DNA from: Neoroseomonas alkaliterrae | Lineage (GTDB): Bacteria; Pseudomonadota; Alphaproteobacteria; Acetobacterales; Acetobacteraceae | NCBI RefSeq assembly: GCF_014199195.1 | Contig: NZ_JACIJE010000007.1 | Coordinates: forward strand, 1 to 64,000 | Direction of reading: 5' to 3' | DNA: 64,000 bases | Shown: one piece after another, positions 51,175 to 56,400 of the stretch | Position numbering within the stretch: position 1 is the stretch's first letter | Layout of the letters: each line of letters opens with the position of its first letter | Notes under the pieces: generated by a model | What the model was told of the DNA's origin: nothing | Database searches by the model: none | The model's input: only the letters and a program-made list of their open reading frames with translations | Program-made: the position numbers and the translations under genes

Positions 51175-51255
51175 TATCCTGCGGACGAAGGATCAACCTT
51201 GCTGTCCGCAGGGCATCAGGCTCTGGTTCCGCGCGGGGCCGCGCCGCGCGCCCCG
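51172..51255. repeat. palindromic intergenic repeat, copy A (single-hairpin form)
   Basis: The left arm TGATATCCTGCGGACGAAGG (51172-51191) faces CCTT, GTCCGCAGG and ATCA on the right, up to 51218. A GC-rich tail reading CAGGCTCTGGTTCCGCGC follows. Copies B and C near 56 kb share the same core and tail. The first three bases are the stop codon of the glycosyltransferase. No second hairpin is seen in this copy. Confidence 0.75.
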
Positions 51256-51500
51256 CGCTGGCGTGAGGCCTCCGCAGGGATGCCTGCCGATACCGGCGCC
51301 ATGACCGCCCCGACGGACAACGAGAAACCGCCGCTCCGCCGCGCATCCGTCTTCGCTTCCGCGCCCGGCCGCGCCCGAGTCCAGGGAGCGAGAACCGCGG
51401 TCCCGCGCCCGCCTGCATGCCAAGGCGCCGGGCCCGCGGCGCCCGCCGACATGCCATCGCCGCGGATGCAGCGCGGCGATGCCCGCCGAGGCGCCCCCGG
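51219..51500. other. gene-free GC-rich region downstream of repeat A
   Basis: This 282-base stretch between the repeat hairpin and the convergent radical SAM gene stop shows only short Arg/Pro/Ala-rich frames. No ribosome site, RNA gene or promoter is evident. The convergent setting means it needs only to hold termination signals. Confidence 0.4.
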
Positions 51501-52652
51501 TCAGAACAGCGCCAGCTGCGCCGTCTGCGCCGCCCTGCCCTCCGCCGGCGGCACCCGGAACCGCGAGCAGTCCAGCGCCGCAACCCCGCCGCCGCGGCGC
51601 TCGAGGCCCAGCCGGCGCGCGGCGATGGCGAAGCGCTGCGCCAGCAGGTCGGCGTAGGCGCCGGTGCCCTTCTGGCGGATGCCGAAGCGGCTGTCGTAGA
51701 GCGCGCCCCCGCGCGTCTGGCGGATCAGGGAGAGCACGCGCGCCGCGCGCTCGGGCATGTGGCGGGCGAGCCAATCCTCGAAGAGCTGCTTGATCTCGTG
51801 CGGCAGGCGCAGCAGCACGTAGCCGGCGCTGCCGGCCCCGGCGGCGGCGCAGCGCTCGAGGATGGACTCGAGCTCCGCATCGTTCACGCCCGGGATCATG
51901 GGCGCGGCCAGCACGGCGGTGGGGATGCCGGCATCGGCGAGCTGCCGGATCGCCGCGATCCGCCTCTCGGGCGTGGCGGCGCGGGGTTCCATGATGCGCG
52001 CGAGGCGGGGGTCGAGCGTGGTCACGGACAGGCACACGCGCACCAGGTTGCGCTTCGCCATGGCGCCGAGGATGTCCATGTCGCGCAGCACGCCGGCGGA
52101 TTTCGTCACGATCGTCACCGGATGCTCGAAGCGGTCGAGCAGCTCGAGCACGGCGCGGGTGAGCTTCAGCGTCCGCTCGACGGGCTGGTAGGGATCGGTG
52201 TTCGAGCCGAGCGCGATCGGCCTCGCCACGTAGCCGGGCTTGCGGAGCTCCTTCTCCAGCAGCGCCGCGACATCGGGCTTGAAGAGCAGCCGCGTCTCGA
52301 AGTCGAGACCGGGGGAGAGGCCGAGATAGGCATGCGACGGCCGAGCGTAGCAGTAGACGCAGCCATGCTCGCAGCCGCGATAGGGATTCACCGCGCGGTC
52401 GAAGCCGATATCGGGGCTGTCGTTCCAGGCGAGGGCGGATTTCGACTTGTCGGGCGTGAGCGTGGTGGGCAAGGGGGGCAGGTCGGCGAAGGCGGCCTCC
52501 AGCGTGCCCCAGCCGTCGTCGAAGGCGTGGCGGGCGGAGGATTCGAAGCGGATGGGCGGGTTCAGCCCGGCGCCGCGGCCCTTGCGGGCGGGCGAGGGCA
52601 TGGCGAAGGCCTCGGAGCCGGGCGGGAGGCGATGGGGCGTGCCGTCGGGCAT
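51501..52652 (-). CDS. PA0069-family radical SAM protein (SplB-like)
   Basis: The 383-aa protein has the radical SAM triad in 'NPYRGCEHGCVYCYARPSHA' (CxxxCxxC), preceded by 'SALAWNDSPDIGFDRAV'. It has 'IALGSNTDPYQPVERTLKLT' and 'VTIVTKSAGVLRDMDILGAM' typical of the PA0069/spore-photoproduct-lyase-like group. It probably binds SAM and a 4Fe-4S cluster to repair or modify nucleic acid; this is inferred from relatives, not shown. Upstream lies a GTTC-N7-GTTC box, so SOS control is likely. Start at ATG 52652 is preceded by a weak ribosome site. Confidence 0.88.
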   Translation of the reverse strand: MPDGTPHRLPPGSEAFAMPSPARKGRGAGLNPPIRFESSARHAFDDGWGTLEAAFADLPPLPTTLTPDKSKSALAWNDSPDIGFDRAVNPYRGCEHGCVYCYARPSHAYLGLSPGLDFETRLLFKPDVAALLEKELRKPGYVARPIALGSNTDPYQPVERTLKLTRAVLELLDRFEHPVTIVTKSAGVLRDMDILGAMAKRNLVRVCLSVTTLDPRLARIMEPRAATPERRIAAIRQLADAGIPTAVLAAPMIPGVNDAELESILERCAAAGAGSAGYVLLRLPHEIKQLFEDWLARHMPERAARVLSLIRQTRGGALYDSRFGIRQKGTGAYADLLAQRFAIAARRLGLERRGGGVAALDCSRFRVPPAEGRAAQTAQLALF

Positions 52653-52666
52653 GGCGCTGGTCCCGT

Positions 52667-52681
52667 GTTCGCTGTATGTTC
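52667..52681 (-). promoter_or_regulatory. LexA-type box 1 (GAAC-N7-GAAC)
   Basis: On the minus strand the site reads GAACATACAGCGAAC, an exact match to the alphaproteobacterial LexA consensus, 14 bases before the radical SAM start. It should repress that gene until DNA damage. Confidence 0.72.
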
Positions 52682-52717
52682 CCCGGCACTCTGGCCCGGG
52701 GCCGGCCGCCGCGTCAA

Positions 52718-52732
52718 GAACAGAATGGGAAC
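52718..52732 (+). promoter_or_regulatory. LexA-type box 2 (GAAC-N7-GAAC)
   Basis: The plus strand reads GAACAGAATGGGAAC, again an exact match, 37 bases before the divergent glycosyltransferase start. It lies midway between the two divergent genes and could control either. Confidence 0.7.
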
Positions 52733-52769
52733 GCGTGGTTAATCGGTCCTTAACGCGATCCTGGGCAGA

Positions 52770-53462
52770 ATGAGAACGCAGAGCGAACTCGCCGCCGTCA
52801 TCCCGACGCTCAACGCCGCCTCGGGCCTCGGCCGCACCCTCGATGCACTGAGCGGCCAGGTGGCGGAGATCGTCGTCGCCGATGGCGGCTCCAGCGATGC
52901 CACGCCAGCCATCGCCACGGCCGCCGGCGCCCGCCTCCTTGCCGCCCCGCGCGGCCGTGGCAGCCAGATCGCCGCCGGCACCGCCGCCGCCACCGCGCCC
53001 TGGCTGCTCGTGATCCATGCCGACACCATCCCCGGCCCCGGCTGGGCCGAGGCCGCCGCGCGCTTCATCGCCGAGCCCGCCAACGCCGCGCGCGCGGCGC
53101 ATTTCCGCTTCGCCCTCGACGATGCGAGCCCCGCCGCGCGCCGCCTCGAACGCGCCGTCGCCTGGCGCTGCCGCGCCCTCGGCCTGCCCTATGGCGACCA
53201 GGGGCTGCTGATCGCGCGCCGCTTCCTCGACAGGCTCGGCGGCTACCGGCACATCCCGATCATGGAGGATGTGGACCTGGTGCGGCGCATCGGCCGCGGG
53301 CGCCTTGCCGCGCTCGATCCGCCCTTCGTCACCTCCGCCGAGCGCTGGCGGCGGGAAGGCTGGCTTGCGCGCTCGGCCCGCAACCTCTCCTGCCTCGCCC
53401 TGTGGTTCGCCGGCATGCCGCCGGAGCGCATCGCCCGCCTCTACGCGCGCGGGCGGCGATAG
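52770..53462 (+). CDS. TIGR04283-type glycosyltransferase (family 2)
   Basis: The 230-aa GT-A protein has 'LAAVIPTLNAASGLGRTLDA', 'EIVVADGGSSDATPAIATAA', the metal-binding 'LLVIHADTIPGPGW' and 'IMEDVDLVRRIGRGRLAALD'. This is the TIGR04283 group often labelled 'arsenosugar biosynthesis glycosyltransferase'. No arsenic methyltransferase or arsenosugar radical SAM gene is nearby, so that label is doubtful. It is followed after 11 bases by its usual partner, TIGR04282. A GAAC-N7-GAAC box overlaps its second to seventh codons. Confidence 0.87.
   Translation: MRTQSELAAVIPTLNAASGLGRTLDALSGQVAEIVVADGGSSDATPAIATAAGARLLAAPRGRGSQIAAGTAAATAPWLLVIHADTIPGPGWAEAAARFIAEPANAARAAHFRFALDDASPAARRLERAVAWRCRALGLPYGDQGLLIARRFLDRLGGYRHIPIMEDVDLVRRIGRGRLAALDPPFVTSAERWRREGWLARSARNLSCLALWFAGMPPERIARLYARGRR
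52774..52788 (+). promoter_or_regulatory. LexA-type box 3 (GAAC-N7-GAAC), inside the 5' end of the TIGR04283 gene
   Basis: The plus strand reads GAACGCAGAGCGAAC, a third exact match within 122 bases. It lies just past the ATG at 52770, where bound LexA could block early elongation or where the actual start may be further downstream. Confidence 0.55.
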
Positions 53463-53473
53463 GCGCGCCGCGC

Positions 53474-54163
53474 GTGGCACGGCCGGTCGTCATCCTCTTC
53501 GCCCGCGCGCCCCGCCTCGGCGCGGTCAAGCGGCGCCTCGCGGGCGGCATCGGCGCGCGCGCCGCGCTGCGCTTCTACCGCGCCACCCTCGCCGCCACCG
53601 CGCGGCCCATCGCGCGCGACCGCCGCTGGCGCACCATCCTCGCCGTCACGCCCGCGGGCGCCCGCGCGGACTGGGCGCGCCTCGTCCCGCGCGGCACGCC
53701 GCGCATGCCGCAGCCCCGGGGCGACCTCGGCCGGCGCATGGCGCTCTGCATGCGGCCCTTCCCGGTCGCGATCCTGGCCGGCAGCGACATCCCCGACCTG
53801 CGCCCCGCCGACATCGCCGCGGCCATCCGCGCCCTCGGCCGGGCGCAGGCCGTTTTCGGGCCGGCCGAGGACGGGGGCTTCTGGCTCGTCGGCCTCGGCC
53901 CGCGCCGGCCGGCGAGGCCTTTCGACGACGTGCGCTGGTCGAGCGAGCACGCGCTCTCCGACACGCTGCGGAACTTCCGGGGGCGGCGCGTCGCCACCCT
54001 GCGGCGGCTTCAGGACGTGGATACGGCGGAAGACCTGGCGCGGTGGCGCGGGGGAGGGCGCCGACCTCCCCCGGGACCCCCTCCCGCCAAAGGCCTGAGG
54101 GCCCTTGGAAACCTCGACTTCAGTCGGGGATTCCGGGGAGGGGCGTCACCGGCGCGCCCATGA
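53474..54163 (+). CDS. TIGR04282 (DUF2064) nucleotidyl/glycosyltransferase-like protein with repeat-derived tail
   Basis: The 229-aa GT-A-like protein has 'VILFARAPRLGAVKRRLAGG', 'VAILAGSDIPDLRPADIAAA' and 'FGPAEDGGFWLVGLGP', the DUF2064/TIGR04282 pattern. It starts with GTG 53474. The family usually ends near 'VDTAEDLARW' (residue about 193 here). The following 35 or so residues are Pro/Gly-rich and are read from the left arm of a palindromic repeat (from 54062). So the gene has probably lost its own stop by repeat insertion and gained a new tail. Confidence 0.83.
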   Translation: MARPVVILFARAPRLGAVKRRLAGGIGARAALRFYRATLAATARPIARDRRWRTILAVTPAGARADWARLVPRGTPRMPQPRGDLGRRMALCMRPFPVAILAGSDIPDLRPADIAAAIRALGRAQAVFGPAEDGGFWLVGLGPRRPARPFDDVRWSSEHALSDTLRNFRGRRVATLRRLQDVDTAEDLARWRGGGRRPPPGPPPAKGLRALGNLDFSRGFRGGASPARP

Positions 54164-54257
54164 TCGCTGGCGCACCATGCCCCTCCCCGAAATCCCCGAT
54201 CCGGGATTGGTGTCCAGAGGCCGTTCGGCCTCCGGTGGGGAGAGGTCCGGAGAGGGG
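54062..54257. repeat. long imperfect inverted repeat, about 80-base arms
   Basis: The left arm (54062-54144) and the right arm (54179-54257) are related in inverted orientation. Shared blocks include CCGGGGAGGGGC against GCCCCTCCCCG at the inner ends and GGGGATTCC against GAAATCCCC next to them. The outer parts are related through the GGTCC, GGCCT and TTTCC/TGTCC stretches, with indels. The 34-base centre is itself weakly palindromic (GGCGCGCC and GGCGCACC). It has no reading frame of a transposase. Half-arms of this style recur between genes of high-GC Acetobacteraceae. Confidence 0.65.
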
Positions 54258-55593: not shown

Positions 55594-55971
55594 ATGAGCC
55601 AGACCAGCCAGCCGACCGCCGAGGCCGAACGCGAGGCGCGCCAGCGCGTCGCCCGCCACCTGCAGGACCTGCACCGCCTGCACCTCGCCCTGGCCGAGGA
55701 GAGCCGCGCGCTCAAGCGCTTCACGACCGAAGGCGCGGCGCGCGCCGAGATCGAGATCGCGGCGGAGATGATCGAGGGCTATCTCGCCGCCTCCGCCGCC
55801 TTCCTCGAGAACATGCGCGGCCGCTTCGAGGCGCGGCTGCCGCTGTTGCGGCGCGGCGAGCCGGCCTTCGGCGCCAGGCCCGGCGAGGCGCCGGAGCATG
55901 GCGCCTTCTGGCTGGCCTTCTCCCGCCTCTGCGCCGTGCTGCGGCGCGCCGGGCGGCACGCGGAGGGGTGA
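55594..55971 (+). CDS. small helical protein, unknown function
   Basis: The 125-aa protein is mainly helical and charged, with heptad-like 'ARQRVARHLQDLHRLHLALA' and 'AEIEIAAEMIEGYLAASAAF' segments, so a coiled coil or helical bundle is likely. No family is recognised. GGAGG 7 bases before ATG 55594 chooses this start over ATG 55579. The TGA stop lies within the first arm of palindromic repeat B, suggesting the repeat defines its 3' end. Confidence 0.65.
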   Translation: MSQTSQPTAEAEREARQRVARHLQDLHRLHLALAEESRALKRFTTEGAARAEIEIAAEMIEGYLAASAAFLENMRGRFEARLPLLRRGEPAFGARPGEAPEHGAFWLAFSRLCAVLRRAGRHAEG

Positions 55972-56097
55972 TACCCTGCGGACAAAGGTCGATCCTTTGT
56001 CCGCAGGCTATCAGGATCTGCTTCCTCCCGCGGCCGCCCGACCGGCCACGCGCGCCATGCCAGAGCGCGAAAGGTCAAATCTTTCGCCCTCTGGTAT
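55969..56097. repeat. palindromic intergenic repeat, copy B (two-hairpin form)
   Basis: Hairpin 1 pairs TGATACCCTGCGGACAAAGG (55969-55988) with its complement at 55994-56013 across a 5-base loop; only one of twenty positions mismatches. Hairpin 2 pairs 56057-56073 (ATGCCAGAGCGCGAAAG) with 56081-56097 across 7 bases, with one mismatch and one G-T pair. A spacer related to copy C (CAGGATCTGCTTCC, CGGCCGCCC) lies between. Its first three bases are a gene's stop codon. Confidence 0.8.
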
Positions 56098-56231: not shown

Positions 56232-56360
56232 CGATCATCCCCTGCGGACGAAGGATCAGCCTTTCTCCAAAGGGCATCAGGATTCGGCTCCGCGCGCGGC
56301 CGCCCCACCAGCCCCGCGCGCGAGACCAGCGGGCGCAAGTCCAAACCTGTCGCCCGCTGG
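56232..56360. repeat. palindromic intergenic repeat, copy C (two-hairpin form, degenerate first hairpin)
   Basis: The left arm of hairpin 1 (CCTGCGGACGAAGGATCA, 56240 on) is like copy A, but the right arm (CCTTTCTCCAAAGGGCATCA) has drifted, giving six mismatches in twenty. Hairpin 2 has perfect 10-base arms CCAGCGGGCG (56326-56335) and CGCCCGCTGG (56351-56360). Together with copy B it fills the 429-base gap 55972-56400, which holds no gene. Confidence 0.7.
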
Positions 56361-56400
56361 CATCACCTTCGCCCACGCGCCCGGCGAGACGCGCGCCCCT

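Follow-up and report, generated by a model that had tools for sequence, protein, structure and literature searches.

Three LexA-type boxes in the divergent promoter of a PA0069-type radical SAM gene and a TIGR04283 glycosyltransferase gene in Neoroseomonas alkaliterrae

Genes for radical S-adenosylmethionine (SAM) enzymes have been placed under LexA control in several bacterial groups. In alpha- and betaproteobacteria, for genomes with several chromosomes, LexA control of splB (COG1533) has been predicted (PMC3323433), so that SOS control of a radical SAM gene of this type is, at the level of prediction, already known. Radical SAM or SplB genes have also been described in LexA or LexA-like regulons of Gram-positives, Balneolaeota, Bacteroidetes and Streptomyces, in passages that do not state the PA0069/Rv2578c subfamily (PMC7739468; PMC8565304; PMC9380542). 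Furthermore, SplB-like radical SAM genes have been linked to ImuB-C operons (PMC3765255), and a RecA-dependent “DNA repair photolyase” of M. tuberculosis has been described in a passage that does not name the gene (PMC8151990). In Caulobacter, the LexA motif is GTTC-N7-GTTC and about 97% of SOS promoters carry a single box; the main text of that work mentions neither “radical SAM” nor “photolyase” (PMC12700426). Here we describe a stretch of 64,000 nucleotides of Neoroseomonas alkaliterrae (Alphaproteobacteria, Acetobacteraceae; contig NZ_JACIJE010000007.1, positions 1 to 64,000), hereafter the window, in which three exact copies of this box, written GAAC-N7-GAAC, lie between and partly within two divergent genes, one for a PA0069-type radical SAM protein and the other for a glycosyltransferase of the TIGR04283 family. 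PA0069 and Rv2578c themselves have reportedly been placed in the LexA regulons of P. aeruginosa and M. tuberculosis; in the open-licence literature we found nothing joining either gene with LexA, and no paper linking TIGR04283 or TIGR04282 to it, which as an absence is weak.

Box 1 lies on the minus strand at 52667..52681, in the 5′ leader of the radical SAM gene and probably over its transcription start, box 2 on the plus strand at 52718..52732, and box 3, also on the plus strand, at 52774..52788, within codons 2-6 of the glycosyltransferase gene. All three are found exactly where the original prediction had placed them, and they are the only exact sites in the window. Dinucleotide shuffling leads one to expect 0.38 sites, and a single shuffle in 100 reached three anywhere in the 64 kb. 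The genome-wide count that had been suggested (4,236,229 bases in 50 contigs) gave 59 exact sites, versus 15 for the pattern read backwards. Apart from the three of the window, no exact sites stand less than 500 bp from each other on one contig, the next closest pair being 552 bp apart, within one long open frame. The observation of a three-box promoter is confirmed.

The genes that carry the same box elsewhere in this genome speak for its identity. Fifty-two of the 56 others were looked at; the position of 30 of them was marked as internal to a long open frame, and these are probably chance matches. Exact boxes also stand just upstream of the RecA gene (570 bits), of a gene with LexA_DNA_bind and Peptidase_S24 domains, of an ImuA-like gene (85.8 bits, below the cut-off of 150) and of a gene that matches LexA in part (28.5 bits; cut-off 111). 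Since it precedes LexA-domain, recA and imuA-like genes, we take GAAC-N7-GAAC to be the operator that LexA uses in this genome. Counted within 200 bp, there is a single exact box at each of the LexA-domain, recA and imuA-like promoters, versus three in the promoter of the window; at one mismatch, a second weak box appears in the LexA-domain and imuA-like promoters. Two further occurrences are worth recording in their own right. An exact box (C3:391785) is flanked on one side by a ribonucleotide reductase alpha gene and on the other by an open frame with domains of universal stress proteins, and two others, with A-rich spacers, on contigs C16 and C28 (L036, L037), lie some 290-310 bp from two DUF2924 genes, possibly genes of mobile elements.

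Across related genomes the box accompanies the radical SAM gene with great regularity. The protein is encoded in 87 of 119 genomes, counting that of the window (90 rows, from which a weak one of G093 and single pieces of G017 and G114 were set aside), and an exact box was found in 85 of these 87 loci; the range read ran from 400 bp before the extrapolated start to 40 bp past it, and only G097 and G104 had no box there. On the same stretches, control motifs gave 0 (N6), 3 (N8), 2 (reversed) and 0 (GAAC-N7-GTTC) matches. In a class-wide set, made of the 30 best-scoring radical SAM matches and 20 loci chosen for a divergent glycosyltransferase, the box is present in 48/50. Among named genomes it is present in 68/80, with one match of the reversed motif; of the 12 boxless loci, seven bear non-alphaproteobacterial names and five alphaproteobacterial ones. 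These three sets have a few genomes in common. In the window, box 2 is the one that corresponds to this class-wide operator. The loci of Neoroseomonas marina and N. oryzicola belong to the same genus, with 89% and 88% identity to the radical SAM protein of the window. Conservation in orthologous promoters had been proposed as a check of the boxes, and it is borne out here.

Beyond the class the sites change their type. In other classes of the phylum, where 20 loci were read out of 32 radical SAM matches over cut-off, an exact E. coli-type box, CTGT-N8-ACAG, occurs in 14 (0.07 expected) and the alphaproteobacterial box in none. Modicisalibacter xianhensis, a gammaproteobacterium by name, carries CTGTATTTAAATACAG 42 bp before the aligned radical SAM start. 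The six remaining loci have neither box; the Xanthomonad-type motif, TTAG-N6-TACTA, was looked for in these six and was not found. The radical SAM gene therefore carries LexA sites of two different motifs. LexA control of this gene is strongly supported by comparative evidence, because the box is shared with LexA-domain and recA genes, is near-universal at this gene in the class, and is replaced by another LexA motif outside it.

The geometry of the promoter adds a feature that the original prediction had not mentioned, namely that box 2 adjoins the −35 element of the radical SAM gene. We aligned 188 distinct loci on the box and grouped them by identity to the radical SAM protein of the window. 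In the genus profile (29 loci), a (nearly) invariant TTGAC comes right after the box, followed by CAGGAT 17 bp on. In the window, the −35 element TTGACG (52712..52717, minus strand) abuts box 2, and a weak −10-like CAGAGT (52688..52693, minus strand), assigned by eye, lies at most one base from the position of CAGGAT in the profile. In more distant loci TTG falls within the spacer of the box, and a weak TAGGAT follows at 17 bp; if these are indeed −35 and −10 elements, the box has moved 11 bp with respect to the −35 from one group to the other, which is roughly one turn of the helix. Moreover, an inverted partner box is found 49-52 bp downstream of the first in 38/87 loci: in 22/27 of other genera of the family, in 16/35 of the window's genus, and in 0/25 of the remainder (24 loci from other families, plus the divergent second copy of G070). 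In this two-box layout LexA would cover both the −35 and the start region. On the opposite side, GTTAAT (52738..52743, plus strand) is, from the genus alignment, the probable −10 of the glycosyltransferase promoter, conserved in 13/15 genus sequences, with TTAA in 15/15. A GTTC-N7-GTTC operator overlapping a promoter, the mark of the LexA regulon, is thus found here over a predicted promoter.

The same region holds a full match to the CtrA-type motif, TTAA-N7-TTAA, at 52739-52753, the first half of which may be the −10 just described. One could suppose that CtrA or another regulator, rather than LexA, mainly governs the promoter, given that the full motif occurs in the window and five congeners and its first TTAA in all 15 genus sequences. 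Nevertheless, it is missing from 9/14 congeners, on which ground we reject CtrA control, and what is conserved beyond the genus are the GAAC boxes; government by such a regulator appears very improbable.

What, then, would LexA be controlling? The radical SAM gene (51501..52652, minus strand) encodes 383 amino acids, with CxxxCxxC at residues 94-101, and matches NF033668 (rSAM_PA0069) at 487 bits (cut-off 360), in line with the family first assigned to it. Its AlphaFold model (predicted local distance difference test, pLDDT, 87.7; predicted template modelling score, pTM, 0.86) gave six spore photoproduct lyase (SPL) entries as the top six structures by Z, so the protein has, as modelled, the SPL fold. 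A search of the PDB by sequence profile gave one weak match, SkfB (6efn, E 0.0034), and the link to SPL accordingly comes from the profile alignment and the fold. We take the catalytic hydrogen-donor cysteine of SPL to be Cys140 of 4fhc. In none of 58 aligned radical SAM sequences is this position a cysteine, in either of two registers: in that of the profile alignment Cys140 falls on T152 (Thr in 58/58), and in that which sets TDP on TDP it falls on residue 150 (T 31, S 13, A 10, I 2, V 1, G 1), the ungapped register being uncertain by two residues and the fold output giving no residue pairs. Nearby residue 154 is a cysteine in 3/58, and the only invariant cysteines of the alignment are the three of the cluster. 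By its residues the protein is thus not a spore photoproduct lyase. A role as a DNA-lesion enzyme is still plausible, because its nearest solved fold is that of SPL. Of the proposal that this is an SOS-controlled radical SAM enzyme of DNA-lesion repair, SOS control is strongly supported by the boxes and a lesion role is made plausible by the predicted fold.

Regarding the surroundings of this gene, in five loci (L126, L157, L161, L274, L317) a gene resembling ribonuclease HII, as read by eye, lies downstream of it; in L157 and L161 it is followed, by the same kind of reading, by a CcrM-like methyltransferase gene.

The divergent TIGR04283 gene (52770..53462, plus strand, 230 amino acids; 195 bits, cut-off 182) has the motif residues DGGS, HAD and MED invariant or nearly so in 37 sequences. 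It is followed by a TIGR04282 (DUF2064) nucleotidyltransferase-like gene (53474..54163, plus strand; 142 bits, cut-off 134), of uncertain start and its probable operon partner, the product of which matches 3cgx, a putative nucleotide-diphospho-sugar transferase (E 2.1e-12). Both scores agree with the families named at the outset. At the end of the latter gene, 54124-54199 form an inverted repeat with arms of 21 nucleotides (95% complementary), a terminator or an element like the repetitive extragenic palindromes. A dispersed repeat of at most 127 bp has three copies in 5.2 kb, at 51178-51258, 55971-56097 and 56237-56363, with aligned stretches 73-92% alike.

From the overlap of box 3 with the first codons of the TIGR04283 gene it had been suggested either that LexA may also block early elongation or that the start is misplaced. 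The overlap holds, for codons 2-6; the start is probably right, because a conserved IPTLNAA motif comes 10 codons after it and ATG or GTG is kept at the position in 14/15 genus sequences (the window included), and a misplaced start is for the same reasons unlikely. Codon usage suggests that the box is kept as DNA. Codon 2 is Arg in 12/15 genus sequences, nine times AGA and three times CGA, all spelling GAAC; elsewhere in these genes, AGA makes up 0/451 and CGA 17/451 Arg codons. The Glu at the second half of the box is GAA in 13/13, versus 30/99 elsewhere. The box is exact in 11/35 genus loci, with a spacing to box 2 of 56 bp in all 11. In congeners of a second clade there is one box, and 2 bp separate its end from an ATG that is in frame with the glycosyltransferase.

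Box 3 might be a by-product of codon choice at the glycosyltransferase start, with no operator involved. Selection for weakly folded mRNA around start codons also favours AGA at codon 2, and one locus (L057) keeps the first half of box 3 without the second, the second half being inexact in two more (L059, L060). Against this stand three congeners with CGA and two with GGA at codon 2, in which GAAC is kept and the base before it changes, as well as the GAA of the second half and the invariable 56 bp to box 2. We regard codon choice as an unlikely explanation. The evidence favours box 3 being kept at the DNA level in the genus; a codon that changes with the motif intact is difficult to account for in another way, though the relatedness of the sequences weakens the count. 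LexA repression of the glycosyltransferase gene is thus likely in the window's genus, where, because box 3 is kept with rare codons, this gene was probably recruited into the LexA regulon.

Outside the genus, the relation between the two genes can be followed across the class. In 289 class genomes, TIGR04283 is over cut-off in 92 and the radical SAM gene is present in 146 (143 over cut-off and three cut or broken copies), with both in 81; 61 of these 81 have the pair within 4 kb, 60 divergently and one codirectionally, and in 45 the divergent genes are within 600 bp of each other. Where the genes have parted, the box is mostly found with only one of them. It occurs at 1/40 TIGR04283 copies chosen as non-adjacent to the radical SAM gene, some of which are below cut-off or second copies. 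In a first sample (three loci, L143, L147 and L148, cut by contig ends and uncounted) it was found at 0/4 separated copies of the family, at 1/1 elsewhere (G092), at 0/4 copies of long-gap pairs and at none of three distant paralogues (L144-L146); the genes lying between the partners of the long-gap cases read are of varied kinds, with no common function. We also placed 67 paired and 36 separated copies on one tree, a third of whose forks are poorly supported and whose bootstrap had not converged; it requires 20 label changes, at least nine of them forced by well-supported branches, and the separated copies are mostly scattered among the paired ones, except for one well-supported group of six. 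Given that separated copies are mostly boxless, the box belongs with the radical SAM gene and not with the glycosyltransferase, and LexA control of the pair would come from adjacency. Separate, class-wide LexA control of the glycosyltransferase is rejected on the same count. Loci of Mesorhizobium (L317; 167 amino acids, 37 bits) and Rhodopseudomonas (L308; 202 amino acids) have a shortened divergent TIGR04283-like gene that still adjoins the radical SAM gene, with a LexA box between the two, and one of Rhizobium (L274) has a partial match.

These data bear on whether LexA governs the radical SAM gene alone, the glycosyltransferase pair being a passenger of old gene order, expressed constitutively or repressed incidentally. 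Such a view accounts for the box remaining with the radical SAM gene once the pair splits, both in the 40 copies and, save for the single case elsewhere, in the first sample, for the scatter of separated copies over the tree, and for promoter elements that in distant loci are conserved on the radical SAM side only. It fits poorly with a divergent pairing kept in 60 of the 81 class genomes and, in the genus, with a box set within glycosyltransferase codons by means of rare codons and at a fixed distance. We consider it a doubtful explanation, albeit one to be kept in mind. The damage-linked role that had been attributed to the pair is only partly supported: common divergent pairing in the class and the kept box 3 of the genus speak for it, and the boxless separated copies (1/40; 1/5) against.

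Both glycosyltransferase-side proteins score above the NCBIfam cut-offs of families labelled for arsenosugar. The best match to ArsS (TIGR04167) in this genome reaches 58 bits, versus a cut-off of 300. Over cut-off ArsS is found in 2/289 class genomes (G084, G217), where it adjoins a below-cut-off TIGR04283 match, and in none of the 92 with TIGR04283 over cut-off. The suggestion that the pair does not serve arsenosugar synthesis is supported by this negative finding. Some TIGR04283 copies away from the PA0069 gene (L181, L194, L204, L214) adjoin another radical SAM gene; the three of these neighbours that were scored are Rv1681-related (89-109 bits, below the cut-off of 380), and an ArsM-like gene also lies near in L214. 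They are possibly unannotated arsenosugar-like clusters.

From this arises the thought that the pair works with the radical SAM enzyme in a single small-molecule pathway, like ArsS and its partners, with DNA damage merely as the signal. The two families co-occur in 81 genomes (Fisher p 1.5e-19, uncorrected for descent and genome size), and the Rv1681-related neighbours, one with its ArsM-like gene, show that TIGR04283 copies do stand beside other radical SAM genes. Nevertheless, many loci have the LexA box at the radical SAM gene without the pair, ArsS is confined to two genomes outside the 92, and the closest fold is that of a DNA repair lyase. A shared pathway of this kind seems to us quite unlikely.

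Altogether, we assign a probability of roughly 0.72 to a LexA-repressed bidirectional promoter, both arms of which would rise together after damage in this genus. The sites and their conservation, the operator identified by the genes it precedes, the promoter geometry, the DNA-level constraint on box 3 and the predicted fold are its basis. LexA would cover the radical SAM gene's −35 region from box 2 and its start region from box 1; upon formation of RecA-DNA filaments, LexA would cleave itself and the radical SAM enzyme would be made. With its SPL fold, this enzyme would most likely use radical chemistry on DNA or nucleotides that have been damaged, and, because the catalytic cysteine is absent, on a lesion other than that of SPL or by another hydrogen-transfer route. 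In the genus, LexA would also sit at boxes 2 and 3, on the promoter and the first codons of the TIGR04283-TIGR04282 operon, and so block it. The binding of LexA, the induction, the repression of the glycosyltransferase gene and the substrate of the enzyme are proposed on genomic grounds. Several facts weigh on the other side: box 3 is exact in only 11/35 genus loci; its AGA may be due in part to selection for A-richness near the start, and the congeners are not independent; TIGR04283 copies apart from the radical SAM gene mostly have no box (1/40, and 1/5 in the first sample); distant loci conserve nothing on the glycosyltransferase side beyond 2-3 bases beside the box; and no box was found in 6/20 other-class loci and in five alphaproteobacterial-named ones. 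LexA control of the radical SAM gene looks widespread, and that of the glycosyltransferase a local addition.

A more far-reaching scenario can be drawn, which we offer as speculative and, taken whole, improbable. In it, a two-armed damage response would combine an SPL-fold enzyme, which without the hydrogen-donor cysteine would reverse or process a lesion of DNA or nucleotides that is not the spore photoproduct, with a divergent nucleotidyl- and glycosyltransferase pair, by which either its product or the envelope would be modified; the two genes would already have been paired in the ancestor of alphaproteobacteria, and the glycosyltransferase arm would have been fixed secondarily in the LexA regulon through an operator evolved in its own codons.

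The core of the system is ordinary, a known SOS gene; the operator layout and the common divergent partner are what is new. As its LexA sites recur even where the LexA motif differs, the PA0069-type gene looks to be among the most widely kept SOS genes without known function in Pseudomonadota. The finding narrows what the enzyme can be: the missing SPL cysteine suggests a reaction other than that of the known lyase, which makes the target lesion a direct question for the bench. The three-box, two-gene operator with its in-codon box, in turn, constitutes a testable case of a neighbour gene entering a regulon.

Compared with the described systems, the PA0069-type protein shares a predicted fold with spore photoproduct lyase (PDB 4fhc and mutants) and differs from it in having no equivalent of the catalytic Cys140 (0/58). 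The pair belongs by score to the same families as the arsenosugar glycosyltransferases, here in a genome without ArsS over cut-off. The splB of PMC3323433 is probably of the same gene family as the PA0069-type gene, because NF033668 is over cut-off in 143/289 class genomes and the SPL-family model TIGR03886 in one (TIGR04070 was not searched for); it, too, is a radical SAM gene of the COG1533 type and is preceded by LexA boxes, which in alphaproteobacteria read GTTC-N7-GTTC. A glycosyltransferase neighbour, a multi-box operator and a missing cysteine are not named for splB in the portions of that work that bear on it, and all three are found here. Finally, the SOS promoters of Caulobacter use the same LexA box, as far as that account goes singly in about 97% of cases (PMC12700426), whereas the promoter described here carries three exact boxes, between and in two genes.
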